This document shows positions 3,464-11,755 of a stretch of 46,767 bases of DNA, piece by piece. The notes under the pieces are model-generated. The model was not told the origin of the DNA. It saw only the letters and a list, made by a program, of their open reading frames with translations, and did no database searches. The position numbers were made by a program, and so were the translations under genes. Origin of the DNA: Clostridia bacterium (GTDB lineage: Bacteria > Bacillota > Clostridia > Christensenellales > Borkfalkiaceae); the NCBI GenBank assembly GCA_017615975.1, contig JAFZYZ010000017.1, positions 1 to 46,767 of the forward strand. Reading direction: 5' to 3'. The stretch's first letter is position 1. Every line of letters begins with the position of its first letter.

Positions 3464-3510
3464 AATTTTCTCCTTTATAAATAACGATATATAGAATATA
3501 TAACGGAAAC

Positions 3511-3539
3511 AGTATAATATCGGGCGCAAAAAAAGTCAA
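3511..3539 (-). promoter_or_regulatory. Sigma-A promoter for mscS-azlCD
   Basis: Minus strand: TTGACT (3539-3534), a 17-bp spacer, TATACT (3516-3511). It is back-to-back with the aro promoter starting at 3569. Confidence 0.75.
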
Positions 3540-3568
3540 GTTTTTGTTATCCGTGCCTTGAAAATCAG

Positions 3569-3598
3569 TTGACAAAACCGCTTAAAGTTTACTATAAT
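3569..3598 (+). promoter_or_regulatory. Consensus sigma-A promoter of the aromatic amino-acid operon
   Basis: TTGACA at 3569-3574 and TATAAT at 3593-3598 with an 18-bp spacer. Both hexamers are perfect consensus. The predicted start is near 3605, just before the leader-peptide ribosome site AGGAG (3607-3611). A promoter this strong fits control by attenuation rather than by initiation. Confidence 0.88.
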
Positions 3599-3617
3599 GA
3601 ATGCAAAGGAGCAAAAA

Positions 3618-3671
3618 ATGGCAATCCGTTTTTACTTTTATTTCGGATATTACTTTAAAAAACCATGTTGA
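3618..3671 (+). CDS. Phe/Tyr-rich attenuation leader peptide of the aromatic operon
   Basis: A 17-codon ORF with the sequence MAIRFYFYFGYYFKKPC, then TGA. Eight of the nine codons 5-13 are Phe or Tyr (four of each). AGGAG at 3607-3611 is spaced six bases from the ATG. The ORF lies between a consensus promoter and a rho-independent terminator ahead of aroF-tyrA-pheA. That is the arrangement of the classic pheA, trp and his leader peptides. Role (inference): a ribosome short of charged tRNA-Phe or tRNA-Tyr stalls on these codons and changes RNA folding downstream. Confidence 0.9.
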   Translation: MAIRFYFYFGYYFKKPC

Positions 3672-3750
3672 AATAATATCGGTTATTTTTTGCTTGTAGA
3701 TTTTTTTATAAATTCAGACTTCAATGACCGATATAAAATCGGTCTTTTTT
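3657..3750 (+). promoter_or_regulatory. Transcription attenuator with pause, antiterminator and terminator structures
   Basis: Three mutually exclusive pairings can be read. (1) 3657-3664 (AAAAAACC, over the Lys-Lys-Pro codons of the leader) pairs with GGTT-A-TTTT at 3681-3689. (2) Antiterminator: 3676-3687 pairs with 3723-3734, 12 bp with one G-U. (3) Terminator: 3726-3732 pairs with 3738-3744. A ribosome stalled at the Phe/Tyr codons would cover strand 1 and free strand 2 to form the antiterminator. A ribosome reaching the stop at 3669-3671 would cover strand 2 and allow termination. Confidence 0.85.
3726..3750 (+). terminator. Rho-independent attenuator terminator
   Basis: GACCGAT (3726-3732), 5-nt loop, ATCGGTC (3738-3744), then six T residues and a further T-rich stretch. 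It sits 25 bp before the aroF start. Confidence 0.88.
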
Positions 3751-3774
3751 ATTTTTACAAAGAAGGTAGTTATT

Positions 3775-4791
3775 ATGATTATAGTCGTAAAGAAAAACAG
3801 CGATAAACAGCAGTTCGATAATCTCGTCAGATGGGTAAAGAGTCAGGGGGTAGATACCGATATATCCGTCGGCAGCAATTCCACGGTGTTGGGGCTTGTC
3901 GGGGATACTTCCAAAATCGACATAGATTTAGTACGTTCTCTCGATATAGTCGAAGACGTAAAGCGTATTCAGGAACCCTATAAATGCGTAAACCGCAAAT
4001 TTCACCCCGACGACACGATAGTAAGCGTCGGCGGCGTGAAGTTCGGCGGGGATAATTTTCAGATTATCGCAGGGCCTTGTTCGGTGGAATCGGAAAAGCA
4101 GATAGTTTTCGTTGCCGAAGAAGTTAAAAAGGCGGGTGCGTCTGTGCTGCGCGGCGGCGCGTTTAAGCCAAGGACTTCGCCCTACTCCTTCCAGGGGCTA
4201 CGGGAAGACGGCATAAAACTGCTGCTTAAAGCCAAGGCGGAAACGGGTATGCCCATAATTACCGAAATAATGAGCATAAGGCATATAGACCTGTTCCGCG
4301 ACGTGGATATAATCCAGATAGGCGCGCGCGATATGCAGAACTTCGAACTCTTAAAGGAAGTGGGCAGGCTTAACAAGCCCGTTATGTTAAAGCGCGGGCT
4401 TGCGAACACCGTCGAAGAGTGGCTTATGAGCGCAGAATATATTATGAGCGAAGGTTGTAAAGACATTATTCTCTGCGAACGGGGGATAAGAACTTTCGAG
4501 CCTTACACGAGAAACACGCTGGATTTATCCGCGATACCTTTGCTTAAAGAACTTACTCACTTGCCCGTAGTGGTCGATCCGTCGCACGCTTCGGGGCTTT
4601 CAAGACTGGTAAAGCCGCTTTCGCTGGCGGCGGTAGGCGCGGGGGCGCACGGACTTATGATAGAAGTGCATAACGATCCCTTGCACGCTCTTTGCGACGG
4701 GGCGCAGTCTATCCGTCCCGAAGAGTTTAAGGACATAGTAGATAAAATAGACGTTATGCTTCCGCTTGTCAATAAGCACAGAACGGTATGA
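3775..4791 (+). CDS. aroF: 3-deoxy-D-arabino-heptulosonate 7-phosphate (DAHP) synthase
   Basis: It condenses PEP and erythrose-4-phosphate, the first shikimate step. The 338-residue protein has an N-terminal ferredoxin-like domain (about 1-70) like that of the Thermotoga-type class I beta DAHP synthase, a domain known in that group for feedback inhibition. The TIM-barrel core follows: IAGPCSVES, LRGGAFKPRTSPYSFQG, QIGARDMQNFELL, LKRGL, ILCERGIRTFEPYTRNTLD and VVDPSHASG. The metal-ligand Cys of AGPC, the Glu, and the DPSH residues are present. The start at 3775 follows AAGGTAG; the open frame reaches into the terminator and is not used. It is the first gene after the attenuator and overlaps tyrA by 4 bp. 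Confidence 0.95.
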   Translation: MIIVVKKNSDKQQFDNLVRWVKSQGVDTDISVGSNSTVLGLVGDTSKIDIDLVRSLDIVEDVKRIQEPYKCVNRKFHPDDTIVSVGGVKFGGDNFQIIAGPCSVESEKQIVFVAEEVKKAGASVLRGGAFKPRTSPYSFQGLREDGIKLLLKAKAETGMPIITEIMSIRHIDLFRDVDIIQIGARDMQNFELLKEVGRLNKPVMLKRGLANTVEEWLMSAEYIMSEGCKDIILCERGIRTFEPYTRNTLDLSAIPLLKELTHLPVVVDPSHASGLSRLVKPLSLAAVGAGAHGLMIEVHNDPLHALCDGAQSIRPEEFKDIVDKIDVMLPLVNKHRTV

Positions 4792-5636
4792 AAATAGGCT
4801 TAATCGGTATGGGGCTTATGGGCGGTTCGTTCGGGCGCGCGCTCGTAAGGCAGGGCTTTACCGTATACGGCTTTGACGTAAGCGAAGAAGTTATGTTAAA
4901 ATGCGAACTTCTGCACGCCTTTTCCGCACCTTTGACAATGGACAACGCGGGGGAAGTGGATTTGCTTATAGCGGCGGTGAATCCGAGTAAATTCGAAAGA
5001 GCGGTCGCGCCCTTTCTGCCACTTTTAAAGGACGGGGCTACGGTGTCCGACTTCTGCGGCGTAAAAAGAACGATAGTAAAGATTATGCGCGGCTTTGCCG
5101 ACGAGTTTTCGGAACTTAACTTTATCGGTGCGCACCCTATGGCGGGAAGGGAATATTCGGGGATTGAACACTCGTCGATAACCCTGTTCGACAAAGCGTC
5201 AATGATACTCGTACCGGTAAAAGCCGATATATTCGCCGTGGACAGGATAAAGGAATTTTATCTGTCGGTTGGTTTTTCACGCGTTGTGATAACGGACGCC
5301 GATCATCACGATAAGGTTATTGCCTACACTTCGCAACTTTGCCATATAGTATCCAACGCGTTTATATTGAACGGGCAGGCGGAAAACCGCTTGGGGTATT
5401 CGGCGGGGAGTTTCAGGGATTTAACCAGAGTCGCCCGTATGAATCCCGCGCTGTGGACGGAACTTATCTCGCAAAATCAGGACAACGCCTTAAAAGAACT
5501 TGACGAACTGATAGCAAATCTCAATAAATACCGCGACGCCATAGCGAAAAAGGATTACGAAAGTCTGTCGCGCCTGTTTGCGGCGGGCAACGACAGAAAA
5601 ATCCGTATAGAACAGGGGAAGAACGACAATGTATGA
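4788..5636 (+). CDS. tyrA: Prephenate dehydrogenase
   Basis: It converts prephenate to 4-hydroxyphenylpyruvate for tyrosine synthesis using an NAD(P) cofactor. The 282-residue protein has an N-terminal Rossmann fold with GLIGMGLMGGSFG (G7, G9, G12), then the conserved substrate region GAHPMAGREYSG (His116) and a helical C-terminal domain with SFRDLTRVA and NPALWTELISQN. There is no chorismate mutase domain and no C-terminal ACT domain, so feedback control probably acts at other points, such as the operon attenuator and the ACT domain of PheA. It overlaps aroF by 4 bp (ATGA) and aroB by 8 bp. Confidence 0.95.
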   Translation: MKIGLIGMGLMGGSFGRALVRQGFTVYGFDVSEEVMLKCELLHAFSAPLTMDNAGEVDLLIAAVNPSKFERAVAPFLPLLKDGATVSDFCGVKRTIVKIMRGFADEFSELNFIGAHPMAGREYSGIEHSSITLFDKASMILVPVKADIFAVDRIKEFYLSVGFSRVVITDADHHDKVIAYTSQLCHIVSNAFILNGQAENRLGYSAGSFRDLTRVARMNPALWTELISQNQDNALKELDELIANLNKYRDAIAKKDYESLSRLFAAGNDRKIRIEQGKNDNV

Positions 5637-6675
5637 GTTAAAAGTGCGCGCGTCCAAGACTTACGACATTACGATAGCGGAAGATTTAAGTTTTTTTTCG
5701 GAACGGGTAATGCCGCTTGTCAAAGGCGAAAGCGTTGCGATAATCACAGACGATAAAGTGAACGCGCTGTGCGGCGGCGCTTTGGACGACTTTTTCGCCG
5801 CCAAGCGGGTAATAAAAATCGTTATACGGCACGGTGAAAAGAGCAAGGACGCGGCGAATTTTATGAAGATAATAAACACGCTGGCGGAACACGGCTTTAC
5901 GCGTGAAGATACGGTTATAGCGTTCGGCGGCGGCGTAGTAGGCGACCTTGCGGGGTTTGCCGCTTCTACCTATATGCGCGGAATAACCCTTATCGCTGTA
6001 CCGACCACGCTGCTTGCCGCGGTGGATTCTTCGGTGGGCGGTAAAACCGCTATCGACCTTAACGCGGGCAAAAATCTCTGCGGAACTTTCTATCAGCCGT
6101 CGGCAGTCTATATAAATACGGGATTTTTAAAAACTCTTCCCGTTAAAGAGATAAAGAACGGGCTGGGCGAAGTGATAAAGTACGCGTTTTTATCCGATAC
6201 GGTAAAGGATACCGATATTCGCAAGAGAGACGCCGCGCTTATTTATAAGTGTCTTAAAATAAAGCGCGATATAGTGGAAAAGGACGAAAGGGAAAGCGGC
6301 TGCCGCGCGCTACTGAACTTCGGGCATACCGTAGGGCACGCGATAGAAAAACTTTCGGGATACAAACTTTCGCACGGAGCGTGCGTAGTAAAAGGTATGG
6401 TTTACGCCGTGGAAATTTCAAAGCGTATTTACGGGCTTTCGGACGGGACGGTGGCTAAAATGTACGCGCTGCTAAACAGCGGAAAGCACGATTTAAGTTG
6501 CGCCTATTCGGCAGAGAGTATAGCGGGGCAGATTTCCGCGGACAAAAAAAGGTACGGCGACAGCGTTAATTTCGTCGCGGTGAAAGATTTGGGCAGGGCG
6601 GAAATAGTAAAAATTAAAATTTCCGACCTTAAAGATATGATGAGTGATTATGAAAGTAGTTTTAAGTCCGTTTAA
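5629..6675 (+). CDS. aroB: 3-dehydroquinate synthase
   Basis: It cyclises DAHP to 3-dehydroquinate, using NAD and a divalent metal. The 348-residue protein shows GGGVVGDLAGFAAS (NAD binding), PTTLLAAVDSSVGGKTAIDL and NGLGEVIKYA. Metal ligands are Glu181, His233 (in NFGHTVGHAIE) and His249 (in LSHG). Its length is normal for the family. It overlaps tyrA by 8 bp, and its 3' end overlaps the start of aroA by about 26 bp. Confidence 0.96.
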   Translation: MYELKVRASKTYDITIAEDLSFFSERVMPLVKGESVAIITDDKVNALCGGALDDFFAAKRVIKIVIRHGEKSKDAANFMKIINTLAEHGFTREDTVIAFGGGVVGDLAGFAASTYMRGITLIAVPTTLLAAVDSSVGGKTAIDLNAGKNLCGTFYQPSAVYINTGFLKTLPVKEIKNGLGEVIKYAFLSDTVKDTDIRKRDAALIYKCLKIKRDIVEKDERESGCRALLNFGHTVGHAIEKLSGYKLSHGACVVKGMVYAVEISKRIYGLSDGTVAKMYALLNSGKHDLSCAYSAESIAGQISADKKRYGDSVNFVAVKDLGRAEIVKIKISDLKDMMSDYESSFKSV

Positions 6676-7888
6676 GGCGGACGGAGAAATATCCGCGCCG
6701 CCTTCTAAATCGTTTGCGCATAGATATATTATCGCGGCGTTTCTTGCGGGCAAAAAATGCGCAATCCATAACGTCGGTTTTTCTGAAGACGTTATTTCCA
6801 CCGTTTCCGCCGTACGGAGTTTAGGCGGTATTGTCGAAAAGAAAGGGGATACCGTTATAGTAAGCGGAAAAGCGCCCGTAAGACAAGCGACGGTAGATTG
6901 CGGGGAAAGCGGTTCTACTATGCGCTTTTTAATGCCCGTGGCGGCGGCACTCGGCATAGAAGCGTCGTTTACCGGCAGGGGCAAACTTATTTCCCGTCCC
7001 GTGGAAGATATATCCGCGGCGATACAGGGGCACGGCGCTACTGTTTTTGGGCATACGGTACGGGGGAAACTCGTTTGCGGGGTTTACCGTATAAGCGGTA
7101 ATTTAAGTTCGCAGTTTGCGTCGGGGCTGCTTTTCGCCCTTTCCGCTTTAAGCGGGGATAGCGAAATAATATTTACGGGCGACAGAGTAAGCAAGGGCTA
7201 TATAGATATAACCGTAAGCGTGTTGAGAGAGTTCGGCGTAAAAATTTCCGAAACGGTGGCGGGCTATAAAATAAAAGGCGGATTTAATCCGCCGGAAAAA
7301 GCGTTCGTAGAAGGCGACTGGTCGGGCGCGGCGTCTCCGCTTGCGATAGGCGCGCTGTGCGGAAGAGTGGCGGTTAAAAACCTTAAATATCCCTCTTTAC
7401 AGCCCGATAGCGCTGTCTTGGATATACTCTGTAGGTTCGGTGCAAAGGCGTCCGCAGAAAAAGATAAAATTACCGTTGAAAAAGGCACGCTTTGCGGGAT
7501 AGACGAAATTTACTGCGAAAACTTCCCCGACATAGCGCAAGTGATATGTTCGGTTGCGGCGTTTAGTAGCGGCACGACTCGGCTTACGGGCGTAAACAGA
7601 CTTAAAATAAAGGAAAGCGACAGGATTGCGGCGATAATAAACACGCTTAAAACCTGCGGCGTGCGCGCGGAATACGACGGTGTTTCGCTTACCGTTTACG
7701 GCGGCGCACCCAAGGGTGGAGATTTTGACGGCGGCAAAGACCACCGCACGGTGATGAGTGCGGCGGTAATCGCGGCGGCGGCAGACGGGATTTCGACCAT
7801 AACGGAATCGGAATACTGCGCCAAATCCTACCCGTCGTTTTTTGAAGATATAAAACTTTTAGGGGGCAAAGCCGATGTCGGTATATAG
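6650..7888 (+). CDS. aroA: 3-phosphoshikimate 1-carboxyvinyltransferase (EPSP synthase)
   Basis: It transfers the enolpyruvyl group of PEP to shikimate-3-phosphate. The 412-residue protein shows the family marks: APPSKSFAHR near the N terminus, DCGESGSTMRFLMP, SSQFASGLLFAL, the catalytic Asp in FPDIAQ, IKESDRIAA, and a C-terminal DHRTVMSAAV. The start is ambiguous: GTG at 6644 or ATG at 6650. ATG is chosen because it begins the expected MKVVLSP start. It overlaps aroB by 26 bp and aroC by 14 bp. Confidence 0.95.
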   Translation: MKVVLSPFKADGEISAPPSKSFAHRYIIAAFLAGKKCAIHNVGFSEDVISTVSAVRSLGGIVEKKGDTVIVSGKAPVRQATVDCGESGSTMRFLMPVAAALGIEASFTGRGKLISRPVEDISAAIQGHGATVFGHTVRGKLVCGVYRISGNLSSQFASGLLFALSALSGDSEIIFTGDRVSKGYIDITVSVLREFGVKISETVAGYKIKGGFNPPEKAFVEGDWSGAASPLAIGALCGRVAVKNLKYPSLQPDSAVLDILCRFGAKASAEKDKITVEKGTLCGIDEIYCENFPDIAQVICSVAAFSSGTTRLTGVNRLKIKESDRIAAIINTLKTCGVRAEYDGVSLTVYGGAPKGGDFDGGKDHRTVMSAAVIAAAADGISTITESEYCAKSYPSFFEDIKLLGGKADVGI

Positions 7889-8927
7889 CGGCAAAAAACT
7901 CCGTATAGAAATTTACGGGGAATCCCACGCGGAAAAAATAGGCGTTAAGGCGGCGGGATTTCCGTCCTTTACCTTTGACGAAAGCGCGCTTAACGAATTT
8001 TTGGCGAGAAGAAAGGCGACCGACAGCGTGTTTTCCACTTCCCGAAAAGAATCGGACAGCCCGATATTTTACGGTATAAAGAACGGGCGTATAGACGGCG
8101 AGTTTACCGCGGAAATAAAAAACGAAAATAAAATAAGCAAGGACTATTCCGCGCTTTACGCAAAGCCCCGCCCTTCGCACGCCGACTACGCGTGGCATAT
8201 AAAGGACGGCGCGTTGGACTTTTCTGGCGGCGGCAGATTTTCCGCGCGGCTTACAGCGCCCTTCTGTGTCGTCGGCGGAATACTTAAACAGTACCTTAAA
8301 ACGCGCGGCATAGAGATAGAAAGTTACGCGTCTTCGGTAGGCAAGGTGTTTGCGCAATCGTATAAAAGCGGTGCGCTTTCAGCGGAAGAAATACGGACAA
8401 AAAGAAACGCCGGTTTTCCGTCGCTTGATAAAAAGGACGAAATAACGGAAGAAATACGGGCGGCAAAAGCCGCAAAAGATTCGGTGGGCGGTACTGCCGA
8501 GTGTGTGATTTTCGGCGTAAAGGGCGTGGGCGATAACCTTTTCGGCGGACTTGAAGGGAAAATCGCAAACCTTATTTACGCTATTCCCGCGGTAAAGGGC
8601 GTGGAGTTCGGCGACGGGTTCGATTTAGCCAAAATGCGCGGCAGTATGGCTAACGACGGCTTATATATTGACGGCGGCGAAGTCGGGTTTTATTCTAACC
8701 GCGCCGGCGGCATAAACGGGGGGATTGCCAACGGCAACCCCATAACTTTCAGGGTGGCGTTCCGCCCCACTCCGTCCATATCTCTGCCGCAGAAGACTGT
8801 GGACTTAGAAAGAAAAGAAAATACGGAAATAGTTATAAACGGCAGGCACGACGCTTGCGTAGTGCCGCGCGCGCTACCTGTGATTGAGAGTGCGGCGGCA
8901 ATCGCGATAGCGGACGAAATACTTTAA
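7875..8927 (+). CDS. aroC: Chorismate synthase
   Basis: It makes chorismate from EPSP with reduced FMN. The 350-residue protein keeps the two catalytic histidines, in YGESHAEKIG (near residue 18) and RPSHADYAW, the FMN-region GGGRFSARLTA and the C-terminal GRHDACVVPRALP. Several usually invariant positions differ: GESHG reads GESHA, RPGHAD reads RPSHAD, and GRHDPC reads GRHDAC. It is therefore a divergent but apparently functional member. It overlaps aroA by 14 bp and ends 13 bp before pheA. Confidence 0.94.
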   Translation: MSVYSGKKLRIEIYGESHAEKIGVKAAGFPSFTFDESALNEFLARRKATDSVFSTSRKESDSPIFYGIKNGRIDGEFTAEIKNENKISKDYSALYAKPRPSHADYAWHIKDGALDFSGGGRFSARLTAPFCVVGGILKQYLKTRGIEIESYASSVGKVFAQSYKSGALSAEEIRTKRNAGFPSLDKKDEITEEIRAAKAAKDSVGGTAECVIFGVKGVGDNLFGGLEGKIANLIYAIPAVKGVEFGDGFDLAKMRGSMANDGLYIDGGEVGFYSNRAGGINGGIANGNPITFRVAFRPTPSISLPQKTVDLERKENTEIVINGRHDACVVPRALPVIESAAAIAIADEIL

Positions 8928-8940
8928 CGGGGAGAAAAAT

Positions 8941-10080
8941 ATGGAACTTGACGAAATAAGAAAGAGGATAGACGGTATAGACGATAAAATAGTCGAACTT
9001 TTCGCGGAACGGACTAACCTTTCGGGCGAAATCGCCAAAGTAAAGGCGCAGACGGGTAAAGGGATAACTGACGGCGACAGAGAACGGGAGATTATATTCC
9101 GCCTTGCTTCAAAAGTGCCGCAGGAATTTACGCTGTATCTTAAAGAACTGTACGAAACGGTGTTTTTCACGAGTAAAGCGTACCAAAGCGCGGTGATGGG
9201 CAAGACTTCTGCGACTGCCGAAGCGATTAAAGAACTTATCGCCAAAGGGTTTTCAAAACTGCCCGCGTCGGCTACCGTTGCGTGTCAGGGGATAAAGGGC
9301 GCGAACAGCGGCGTTGCGGCGGCGAAATTCTTTCCCGTATCGAATATAGTTTACGTTAAAAATTTCGAAGGGGTTTTCAGCGCGGTGGAAAGCGGGCTTT
9401 GCGAGTACGGCGTGCTGCCTATCGAAAATTCCACGGCGGGTTCGGTTCTCGAAGTGTACGACCTTATGAGGAAACATAATTTCCACATAGTAAAGTCTGT
9501 GCGGCTTAAAATCTCGCATTGTCTCGCCGCGTTGCCTACGGCGGATATAAAATCTGTTAAAAAAGTTATTTCGCACCCGCAGGCGCTTATGCAGTGCGAC
9601 GAGTTTATAAAAAAACGCGGCTTACAGGCGGAAGCGGACGAAAACACCGCCGTCGCCGCCAAAAAAGTTGCGGAAAGCGGGGATATAACGCTTGCGGCGC
9701 TGTGTTCTAAGGAGTGCGCGGAGACTTACGGGCTTAAAATTTTACAGCCCGACGTGCAGGCAAGCGACGCAAATTACACCCGCTTTATCCTGATACGGAA
9801 AGATCTTTGTATCTATCAGGGCGCGGACAGAATAAGCGTTATGACTTCTCTCCCGCACGAGCCCGGTAGTTTAAACAGGATTTTGGGCAGGTTTTCGGCG
9901 CTGGGGCTTAACCTTACAAAGTTAGAATCCCGCCCGATAGCGGGTTCTGACTTCGAGTTTATGTTCTACTTCGATTTCGACGGAGATATAACCGACGCCG
10001 CAGTTCAGAACCTTATTGCCGAACTTGAAAACGGTTCGGATAACTTCGTATTCCTTGGCGCGTATAAAGAGAAATTATGA
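8941..10080 (+). CDS. pheA: Bifunctional chorismate mutase / prephenate dehydratase (P-protein)
   Basis: It turns chorismate to prephenate and then to phenylpyruvate. Three domains are visible in 379 residues. An AroQ-type chorismate mutase (about 1-85) carries LDEIRKRIDGIDDKIVELF and the Arg-Lys set. A prephenate dehydratase domain (about 105-285) carries VACQGIKGANSG, VLPIENSTAGSV and SHPQALMQC. A C-terminal ACT domain (about 297-375) has EPGSLNRILGRFSALGLNLTKLESRP in its usual form. The ACT domain binds phenylalanine for feedback inhibition (family knowledge). GGGGAG precedes the ATG. It overlaps the next gene by 4 bp. Confidence 0.96.
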   Translation: MELDEIRKRIDGIDDKIVELFAERTNLSGEIAKVKAQTGKGITDGDREREIIFRLASKVPQEFTLYLKELYETVFFTSKAYQSAVMGKTSATAEAIKELIAKGFSKLPASATVACQGIKGANSGVAAAKFFPVSNIVYVKNFEGVFSAVESGLCEYGVLPIENSTAGSVLEVYDLMRKHNFHIVKSVRLKISHCLAALPTADIKSVKKVISHPQALMQCDEFIKKRGLQAEADENTAVAAKKVAESGDITLAALCSKECAETYGLKILQPDVQASDANYTRFILIRKDLCIYQGADRISVMTSLPHEPGSLNRILGRFSALGLNLTKLESRPIAGSDFEFMFYFDFDGDITDAAVQNLIAELENGSDNFVFLGAYKEKL

Positions 10081-11309
10081 AATACTGTTTAATAGGCGAA
10101 CGTCTTTCGCACAGTTATTCGGCGGAAATACACGCTTTAAGCGGCTTAAACTATTCGCTTAAAGAAGTGCCGCGCGGGGAACTTGCCGAGTTTATCAAAG
10201 AAGACTACGACGGGTTTAATATAACTATTCCGTACAAAAAGGAAATAATACCGTTTTTAGACGGGCTTGACGAAAGTGCGAAGAAAGTTGGCGCGGTAAA
10301 TACCGCCGTTAAAAAAGGCGGCAAGTATTACGGCTATAACACCGATACGGAAGGTATGCGCTACGCGCTTTCGCGTAAAAATATCCTTTTATCTGGCAGG
10401 CGGGTTATGATTTTAGGCACGGGCGGAGCGGCTTTGACCGCGGAAGCGTTGTGCCGTGCGGAAAATGCGAAGAGTGTCGTAAAGGTAAGCCGTGCTGGTG
10501 AAGTGAATTACCAAACTTGCTATAATCTTAAAGATACCGAAATTATCGTAAACGCAACCCCCGTGGGTATGTTTCCTAATATCGGCGGAAAGCCGATAGA
10601 TTTAAGTGCGTTCCCGAACTTAACGGGCGTTTTCGACTGTATTTACAACCCGTTTAACACCGCGCTTATCGCGCAGGCGAAAGGGCTTAATATCAACTGT
10701 TCTGACGGGCTGCCCATGCTTGTTAAGCAAGCGCTGGAAGCGCAAAAAATCTGGGGCGTCGGCGGAAAGCAAGACGATACGGAAGAAATAATCGCCGCGC
10801 TGTACCGCAAAAAACTTAACATAGTGCTCTGCGGAATGCCGAGTTCGGGCAAAACTACGATAGGTAAGATGGCGGCGGCGCTTTTAGGCAAAAGTTTTAT
10901 AGATACCGACGCGGAAATTTTAAGCGCTACGGGCAAAACTCCCGCGGAAATTATAGAAAAGGACGGGGAACGGGCGTTCCGCGATATAGAAACGGAAATA
11001 ATAAAAAAAATCTCTATTGTTAGCGGCGCTGTAATCGCTACGGGCGGCGGCGCGATTTTACGCGAAGAGAACGTTTCCGCACTTAAAGCAAACGGCGTGA
11101 TTTTTTATATAAAACGCGACCTGTCGCTGCTTACCGCCGCTGGAAGGCCGCTCTCTAAGGACTTCGGCGTAGCGAAACTGTTTGAAGAGAGAAAAGCGTT
11201 GTACGCGCGGGCGGCGGATTTTACGGTGGAAAATAACGGCGAAAAACAGTCCGCGGCGGAAAATATCGCGCGGAAATTTGCCGCTTTTAATTACAATCCT
11301 GAAAATTAG
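10077..11309 (+). CDS. aroE-aroK: Shikimate dehydrogenase - shikimate kinase fusion
   Basis: One 410-residue protein with two enzymes for consecutive steps. Residues about 1-245 are shikimate dehydrogenase: GERLSHSYS, NITIPYKKE (catalytic Lys), VGAVNTAV, GYNTDTEGM, the NADP-binding GTGGAALTA, NATPVGMFP and a DGLPMLVKQA end. Residues about 246-410 are shikimate kinase: Walker A GMPSSGKTTIGK, FIDTD, GERAFRDIE, ATGGGAI and the lid residue in AGRPLS. Dehydroshikimate is reduced and then phosphorylated, so fusion could channel shikimate (inference). It overlaps pheA by 4 bp (ATGA). No separate aroE or aroK is in the window. Confidence 0.95.
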   Translation: MKYCLIGERLSHSYSAEIHALSGLNYSLKEVPRGELAEFIKEDYDGFNITIPYKKEIIPFLDGLDESAKKVGAVNTAVKKGGKYYGYNTDTEGMRYALSRKNILLSGRRVMILGTGGAALTAEALCRAENAKSVVKVSRAGEVNYQTCYNLKDTEIIVNATPVGMFPNIGGKPIDLSAFPNLTGVFDCIYNPFNTALIAQAKGLNINCSDGLPMLVKQALEAQKIWGVGGKQDDTEEIIAALYRKKLNIVLCGMPSSGKTTIGKMAAALLGKSFIDTDAEILSATGKTPAEIIEKDGERAFRDIETEIIKKISIVSGAVIATGGGAILREENVSALKANGVIFYIKRDLSLLTAAGRPLSKDFGVAKLFEERKALYARAADFTVENNGEKQSAAENIARKFAAFNYNPEN

Positions 11310-11320
11310 GGGGGGGAGTT

Positions 11321-11755
11321 ATGAAAATTCTCGTTATAAACGGAGTAAACTTAAATATGCTGGGTATTCGAGAACCCGACCTGTACGGTAAAAGCGATTA
11401 TAAGGCACTTGTTAAAACCGTCAAATCGCACGCGCAAAAAATAGGCGTAAAGGTAAAGTGCTTTCAGTCTAATTCGGAAGGCGCGATCGTTTCCGTGGTT
11501 CAAAAGGCGTACCGCCGCTTTGACGGGATAGTTATTAACGCGGGCGCGTATACGCATACGAGTATCGCGATATTAGACGCGTTAAAGGCGGTGCAAATTC
11601 CCACCGTAGAAGTGCATATCACCGATATAAACACCCGCGAAGAGTTCAGAAAAAACAGTTATATTTCGCTTTATGCTGAAAAATTTATCGCGGGCAAGGG
11701 AATTGCGGGCTACACCGAAGCGCTTGGCTACTTAAAAGAAAAATACGGAAAATAA
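11321..11755 (+). CDS. aroQ: Type II 3-dehydroquinate dehydratase
   Basis: It dehydrates 3-dehydroquinate to 3-dehydroshikimate. At 144 residues it has the normal length of the small dodecameric type II enzyme. Marks are NGVNLNMLG, the catalytic Tyr in REPDLYG, INAGAYTHTSIA (with the active-site His of this region), VEVHITDINTREEFRKNSY. A very G-rich ribosome site (GGGGGGGAG) precedes the ATG. It is the last gene of the aro operon, 11 bp after aroE-aroK, and supplies the only step missing from the genes before it. Confidence 0.95.
   Translation: MKILVINGVNLNMLGIREPDLYGKSDYKALVKTVKSHAQKIGVKVKCFQSNSEGAIVSVVQKAYRRFDGIVINAGAYTHTSIAILDALKAVQIPTVEVHITDINTREEFRKNSYISLYAEKFIAGKGIAGYTEALGYLKEKYGK

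Follow-up and report, generated by a model that had tools for sequence, protein, structure and literature searches.

Why would a lineage rich in T-boxes use a leader peptide for one operon, that of a pathway with two end products, both of which such a leader can read? This question is raised by a stretch of 46,767 nucleotides from a Clostridia bacterium (contig JAFZYZ010000017.1, assembly GCA_017615975.1), hereafter called the window. It is not confined to one genome: one unannotated 17-codon ORF type stands before the entire Phe/Tyr pathway in dozens of gut Clostridia. Leader-peptide attenuation is usually described in Proteobacteria and Actinomycetota, while for Bacillota the usual account is one of T-boxes. 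Each T-box responds to a single tRNA via one specifier codon, and does so without translation. Leaders that carry codons for several amino acids, such as those of ilv and thr, have long been known.

The leader and its start signals were located as follows:

3569-3598, forward strand: sigma-70-type promoter, TTGACA (3569-3574), 18-nt spacer, TATAAT (3593-3598), both hexamers perfect
3607-3611, forward strand: AGGAG ribosome-binding site of the leader ORF
3618-3671, forward strand: leader ORF of 17 codons, ATG 3618-3620, TGA 3669-3671, aromatic codons Phe 5, 7, 9, 13 and Tyr 6, 8, 11, 12

By direct reading, the ORF encodes MAIRFYFYFGYYFKKPC before its stop codon, in which residues MAIR and KKPC flank the run FYFYFGYYF at codons 5-13, with four Phe and four Tyr in nine. 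The preliminary description of this DNA, which had reported a 17-codon leader with eight of nine successive codons for Phe (four) or Tyr (four) behind a perfect promoter and AGGAG, is thus right to the base, the start signals being read at 3569-3611. A short ORF with an ATG start and 8 of 9 F/Y codons appeared in one of 20,000 dinucleotide-preserving shuffles of positions 3476-3774. The runner-up among the 600-nt stretches of the window, with both strands considered, reaches 5 of 9 F/Y codons. A whole-window scan for short ORFs that combine a biased run of nine codons with a ribosome-binding site and a terminator returned this leader ORF alone.

Start signals were also summarized for 107 leader-bearing loci. 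Within the 70 nt upstream, the best -35/-10 match averages 10.2 of 12 positions, vs 7.8 of 12 in shuffled sequence, and both boxes are perfect in 31 of the 107 loci. In three loci (L074-L076; leader ATG about -165 to -176 from aroF), the -10 box TATACT comes to within 6 nt of the ATG and no Shine-Dalgarno sequence is present, so that these leader mRNAs look leaderless.

The genes behind the leader form one operon, in which successive functions cover the shikimate pathway and both of its terminal branches:

3775-4791, forward strand: aroF, 3-deoxy-7-phosphoheptulonate synthase (NF006421, TIGR01361; start taken at ATG 3775)
4788-5636, forward strand: tyrA, prephenate dehydrogenase
5629-6675, forward strand: aroB, 3-dehydroquinate synthase (TIGR01357)
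6644-7888, forward strand: aroA, 3-phosphoshikimate 1-carboxyvinyltransferase (TIGR01356)
7875-8927, forward strand: aroC, chorismate synthase (TIGR00033)
8941-10080, forward strand: pheA, chorismate mutase-prephenate dehydratase
10077-11309, forward strand: aroE-aroK fusion, shikimate dehydrogenase and shikimate kinase in one ORF
11321-11755, forward strand: aroQ, type II 3-dehydroquinate dehydratase (TIGR01088), last gene of the operon, with guaA 106 nt further

Most other loci that extend far enough have the same gene order behind the leader. Earlier, the leader had been said to govern the whole common pathway instead of a terminal branch; the common pathway does lie behind the leader, but the operon also holds both terminal branches (tyrA and pheA). 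Domains PF00425 (TrpE/PabB) and PF00218 (IGPS) are found in 0 of 37 genus genomes, while all 14 control genomes have them. Judged by these two domains, Phe and Tyr are the only fates of chorismate that can be seen in this genus, and they look like the only amino-acid products of the pathway. Without a Trp branch the common pathway is in effect a Phe/Tyr pathway, and a leader with Phe and Tyr codons would read every amino-acid end product. A TrpB-like enzyme (NF009057) is retained in the present genome (G000, locus L001) under a Trp (UGG) T-box, in a genus lacking TrpE/PabB and IGPS, which suggests indole salvage or Trp uptake.

Between the leader stop and aroF lie the elements of a transcriptional switch:

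3678-3687, forward strand: region 2, the antiterminator strand AUCGGUUAUU, just past the leader stop, with its partner at 3723-3732
3723-3732, forward strand: region 3, AAUGACCGAU, which pairs with region 2 or, as 3726-3732, forms the 5' arm of the terminator
3726-3755, forward strand: intrinsic terminator, GACCGAU (3726-3732), 5-nt loop, AUCGGUC (3738-3744), U-rich run

The preliminary description had missed both the intrinsic terminator (3726-3744) and the antiterminator strand (3678-3687) that competes for its 5' arm. Since region 3 contains this arm and is complementary to region 2, antiterminator and terminator are mutually exclusive. Folding of the window gives segment energies of -16.5 kcal/mol for the antiterminator vs -8.6 kcal/mol for the terminator. 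The ribosome was then represented by a mask covering the A site plus 14 nt, moved codon by codon. When the RNA extends only to the loop, before region 4, the antiterminator forms with probability 0.96-0.98 for every A-site position from codon 5 to codon 13, and with probability 0.04 once the ribosome has reached the stop codon. When the whole hairpin is present, a ribosome at the stop codon leaves the terminator a probability of 0.98; stalls at codons 6-9 lower this to 0.37-0.38 and stalls at codons 11-13 to 0.01-0.05. A stall at codon 5 lowers it only to 0.81 at equilibrium, so switching from that position would have to be kinetic. In several relatives, folding lets the terminator win at equilibrium in every ribosome state.

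A terminator follows the leader stop in most loci, generally 20-70 nt downstream. Across 82 loci, the native duplexes between regions 2 and 3 average -11.2 kcal/mol vs -8.0 kcal/mol when the strands are swapped between loci. The terminator shows compensatory changes, affecting both sides, in 4 of 7 pairs, which is matched by 2 of 500 shuffles. For the antiterminator, region 2 hardly varies in the close group, so covariation there is not significant, with 354 of 500 shuffles scoring as high; its support comes from the cross-group swap test and from folding. Furthermore, the Shine-Dalgarno/start region at 3608-3622 (GGAGCAAAAAAUGGC) can pair with 3682-3696 (GGUUAUUUUUUGC), as a pairing of region 1 with region 2. 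The native value of this pairing is -12.5, vs -10.0 swapped and -8.5 shuffled, and as long as region 4 has not been transcribed the antiterminator forms even when no ribosome is present. In this modelling, the GGAGCAAAAAAUGGC:GGUUAUUUUUUGC helix is a possible protector helix.

In short, the locus has a leader ORF with a ribosome-binding site, a conserved run of end-product codons, an intrinsic terminator and an alternative antiterminator that, in the folding model, is blocked by a ribosome at the stop codon. We conclude with high confidence that the element is a classical ribosome-mediated transcription attenuator of the Phe/Tyr operon. RNA polymerase would start from the promoter at 3569-3598, and a ribosome would follow on the leader ORF. 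When charged tRNA-Phe and tRNA-Tyr are plentiful, the ribosome should reach the stop codon at 3669 and cover region 2 (3678-3687), so that region 3 would pair with region 4 and the terminator (3726-3744 and U-run) would halt transcription before aroF. When charging of tRNA-Phe or tRNA-Tyr is low, the translating ribosome would be expected to stall in codons 5-13; region 2 would then be free to capture region 3, no terminator would form, and readthrough into the nine-function operon aroF-tyrA-aroB-aroA-aroC-pheA-aroE/aroK-aroQ would result. As Phe and Tyr codons alternate, either shortage should stall the ribosome at nearly the same place, which would make the leader an OR gate over both end products.

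A ligand-binding RNA, such as a T-box, might instead control the operon, with the short ORF being incidental. Of the compared genomes, 60 of 61 contain T-boxes, this one has five, and one genome lacking the leader (G060) has a UUC (Phe) T-box between tyrA and aroE/aroK-aroF (L145, 2748-2491, minus strand), an apparent swap of one tRNA-charging sensor for another. In the window, however, neither a T-box (Rfam RF00230) nor, at gathering score, the Rfam Phe leader or another catalogued leader family was matched, and the sole Rfam match is a tRNA. The RNA measures about 170 nt from promoter to aroF, and 54 of these belong to the ORF; the aromatic run is conserved and far exceeds chance expectation; and the alignments contain no conserved ligand-binding or specifier-like structure. 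We regard control by such an RNA as scarcely credible.

By alignment position, the specifiers of the five T-boxes are UGG before the TrpB-like gene, CUC before an isopropylmalate-synthase-like gene, ACC before thrS and UUC at a contig end, and the fifth is ambiguous. One T-box in G000 (L002, G000:C101, 1501-1743) precedes a gene for an HTH-cupin plus AMP-binding protein, an unusual target. In G037, a Trp T-box lies upstream of trpE. An upstream T-box in G041 was considered as an aro control and rejected: the aligned specifier reads CUC (Leu), and the gene behind this T-box is isopropylmalate-synthase-like.

Conservation in relatives, on which the preliminary description had staked its proposal, was checked in two collections and found in both. 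An aroF match exists in 51 of the 61 compared genomes, and 31 of 32 same-genus genomes with aroF carry an aromatic leader upstream of it, the exception being G022; in G003 the leader sits at -602. In an independent broader contig collection, which overlaps with the same-genus collection in some loci, 64 of the 80 top aroF loci have the leader, almost always together with the aro operon. These carriers are mostly Clostridia bins, together with Angelakisella massiliensis, a Christensenella bin and bins labelled Coriobacteriales and Flexilinea. Among named records, Subdoligranulum variabile (YYYFGYYF and terminator) and Acetoanaerobium noterae have the pattern, Treponema saccharophilum has it more weakly (5 of 9), and the aroF locus checked in Collinsella aerofaciens is without a leader. 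A covariance model of the site found one copy per genome in 18 genomes, always directly 5' of aroF. A second copy in the same genomes was not found by this model, which is strict and missed diverged leaders of the other subclade of the genus.

Several loci deserve separate mention. On plasmid pTS2 of the spirochaete T. saccharophilum (L149), an aromatic short ORF about -320 from aroF is followed by a terminator-like hairpin. The FYFYF subclade (G007, G008, G017, G020, G021, G023 and G035, corresponding to L035, L034, L022, L026, L023, L041 and L032) has 180-360 nt between the attenuator terminator and aroF; a hidden gene was sought in this gap and no convincing ORF was seen. Five genomes of the same genus (G014, G016, G018, G031, G034) have no aroF match, through possible whole-pathway loss or missing contigs.

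The conserved ORF could also act through its product, as a functional microprotein or as an arrest peptide that binds free Phe/Tyr in the way TnaC binds Trp, without sensing tRNA charging. The peptide is hydrophobic, and some residues past the aromatic run (Pro, Cys/Tyr) are conserved in close relatives. Yet outside the run both length (about 14 to 36 residues or more) and sequence vary freely, F and Y interchange where a peptide that arrests by direct binding should preserve particular residues, and the ORF stays in place before the terminator and aroF. A function of this kind is thus very improbable, and we retain the tRNA-charging attenuator.

The earlier claim that the leader senses both end products at once draws on a codon mix that is indeed conserved: 98 distinct leaders contain 423 Phe and 409 Tyr codons, none is without one of the two, and a distance of one to four codons usually separates the first Phe codon of the run from the first Tyr codon. 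When 22 leaders of the genus are aligned, six aromatic columns comprise 132 residues, of which 130 are Phe or Tyr, with frequent exchange between the two. Such exchange fits selection for either aromatic codon, as Phe-only sensing would let the Tyr codons drift. In the folding model, stalls at Phe or at Tyr are also structurally equivalent. Taken alone, a conserved Phe/Tyr mix in sequence would be no proof of a Tyr response, and the Corynebacterium glutamicum operon speaks against this part of the claim. C. glutamicum aroR encodes a Phe-Tyr-Phe leader before aroF (Neshat et al. 2014; PMC4046766, PMC11802643), and its operon answers Phe limitation and not Tyr, the availability of which has no effect (PMC11802643). 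By this analogy, Tyr sensing here would be contradicted.

The element may accordingly be a real attenuator that in practice senses Phe alone, as described for aroR, with the Tyr codons as tolerated passengers. The Phe (UUC) T-box at aroE/aroK-aroF of the leaderless G060 points the same way. Several findings weigh against it: Tyr is as common as Phe and both occur in every leader; aligned positions swap F and Y and do not drift to Leu, Ile, Ser or Cys, although a single mutation of a Phe codon can equally lead to these; stalls at Tyr codons 6, 8, 11 and 12 give the same antiterminator in folding as stalls at Phe codons; tyrA belongs to the operon; and the 9-codon runs of the G049 and L083 leaders have Tyr and no Phe. 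We consider Phe-only sensing possible, though rather unlikely, and Tyr sensing in particular stays a prediction of the two-input attenuator.

Some leaders depart from the balanced mix. L036 (G049) and L083, whose 9-codon runs are of the Tyr-only AYYTAYGYYYYY type, are possibly Tyr-only leaders. Trp codons lie within the aromatic run of L088, L099, L140 and G057 (L051), for example in YFWFYYFF and FYFYYGYWWF, and these leaders possibly sense all three aromatic amino acids. The idea that leaders contain Trp codons whenever the genome makes Trp was not supported, for among the TrpE genomes G037, G040, G041, G049, G053, G056 and G057 only G057 has one in its run.

For the broader question, we give an even chance to the proposal that across Clostridia the complete shikimate/Phe/Tyr operon is as a rule controlled by a true two-input (Phe OR Tyr) tRNA-charging sensor, that this arrangement is probably ancient, and that it extends into bins labelled Chloroflexota, Coriobacteriales and Spirochaetota. 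The sensor may have been kept in T-box-rich lineages because one leader reads two amino acids and one T-box reads one tRNA. If this is true, in genera that lack a Trp branch the sensor would cover all the amino acids that the pathway yields. For gut bacteria, both those that make aromatic amino acids and those that lack them, the leader would also add a regulatory part that annotations omit.

Compared with known systems, the element resembles enterobacterial pheL-pheA and pheM-pheST in its logic of leader peptide, terminator, antiterminator and, possibly, protector, whereas those leaders have Phe codons only and control a terminal branch or a tRNA synthetase (Rfam Phe leader; PMC11802643). It resembles the Phe, Tyr and Trp T-boxes of Bacillota in that tRNA charging would be read and a terminator switched before aromatic genes; in T-boxes, however, the RNA binds one tRNA without translation, while the operon here has a leader ORF in a window without a T-box. 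The Acholeplasma motif uORFC-13-1 upstream of aroF, a predicted Phe uORF, shares the promoter, ribosome-binding site, aromatic codon(s) and terminator before aroF, but all that is described of its codons is at least one for Phe from a U-run, Tyr is not noted, and its 24 representatives come from Acholeplasma and environmental sequences only (PMC8632094). The contrast drawn earlier with the Phe-only pheA leader of enterobacteria was right; a closer precedent is the Phe-Tyr-Phe leader of C. glutamicum aroR (PMC4046766, PMC11802643). In both systems a short leader containing Phe and Tyr codons precedes an operon whose first gene encodes DAHP synthase, and the attenuation is ribosome-mediated, which for the present leader is a prediction. 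They differ in that aroR has three aromatic codons (F-Y-F) and belongs to an unrelated lineage, Actinomycetota, while the leader here has eight and its operon, unlike that of aroR, comprises the whole shikimate pathway and both terminal branches. Full-text searches found no Clostridia aro leader in the literature; Lopatovskaya et al. 2010 (Mol Biol 44:128), which lay outside their scope, could contain one. The mechanism itself is textbook attenuation of a known kind. From the sequences compared, the Phe/Tyr leader appears unusually widespread in gut Clostridia, a group regarded so far as depending chiefly on T-box riboswitches. Within the literature that was searched, four features are new relative to these systems: how widely the leader occurs in Clostridia, how strong its balanced Phe/Tyr run is, the predicted control of a complete-pathway operon and the fit to a genus without the Trp branch.
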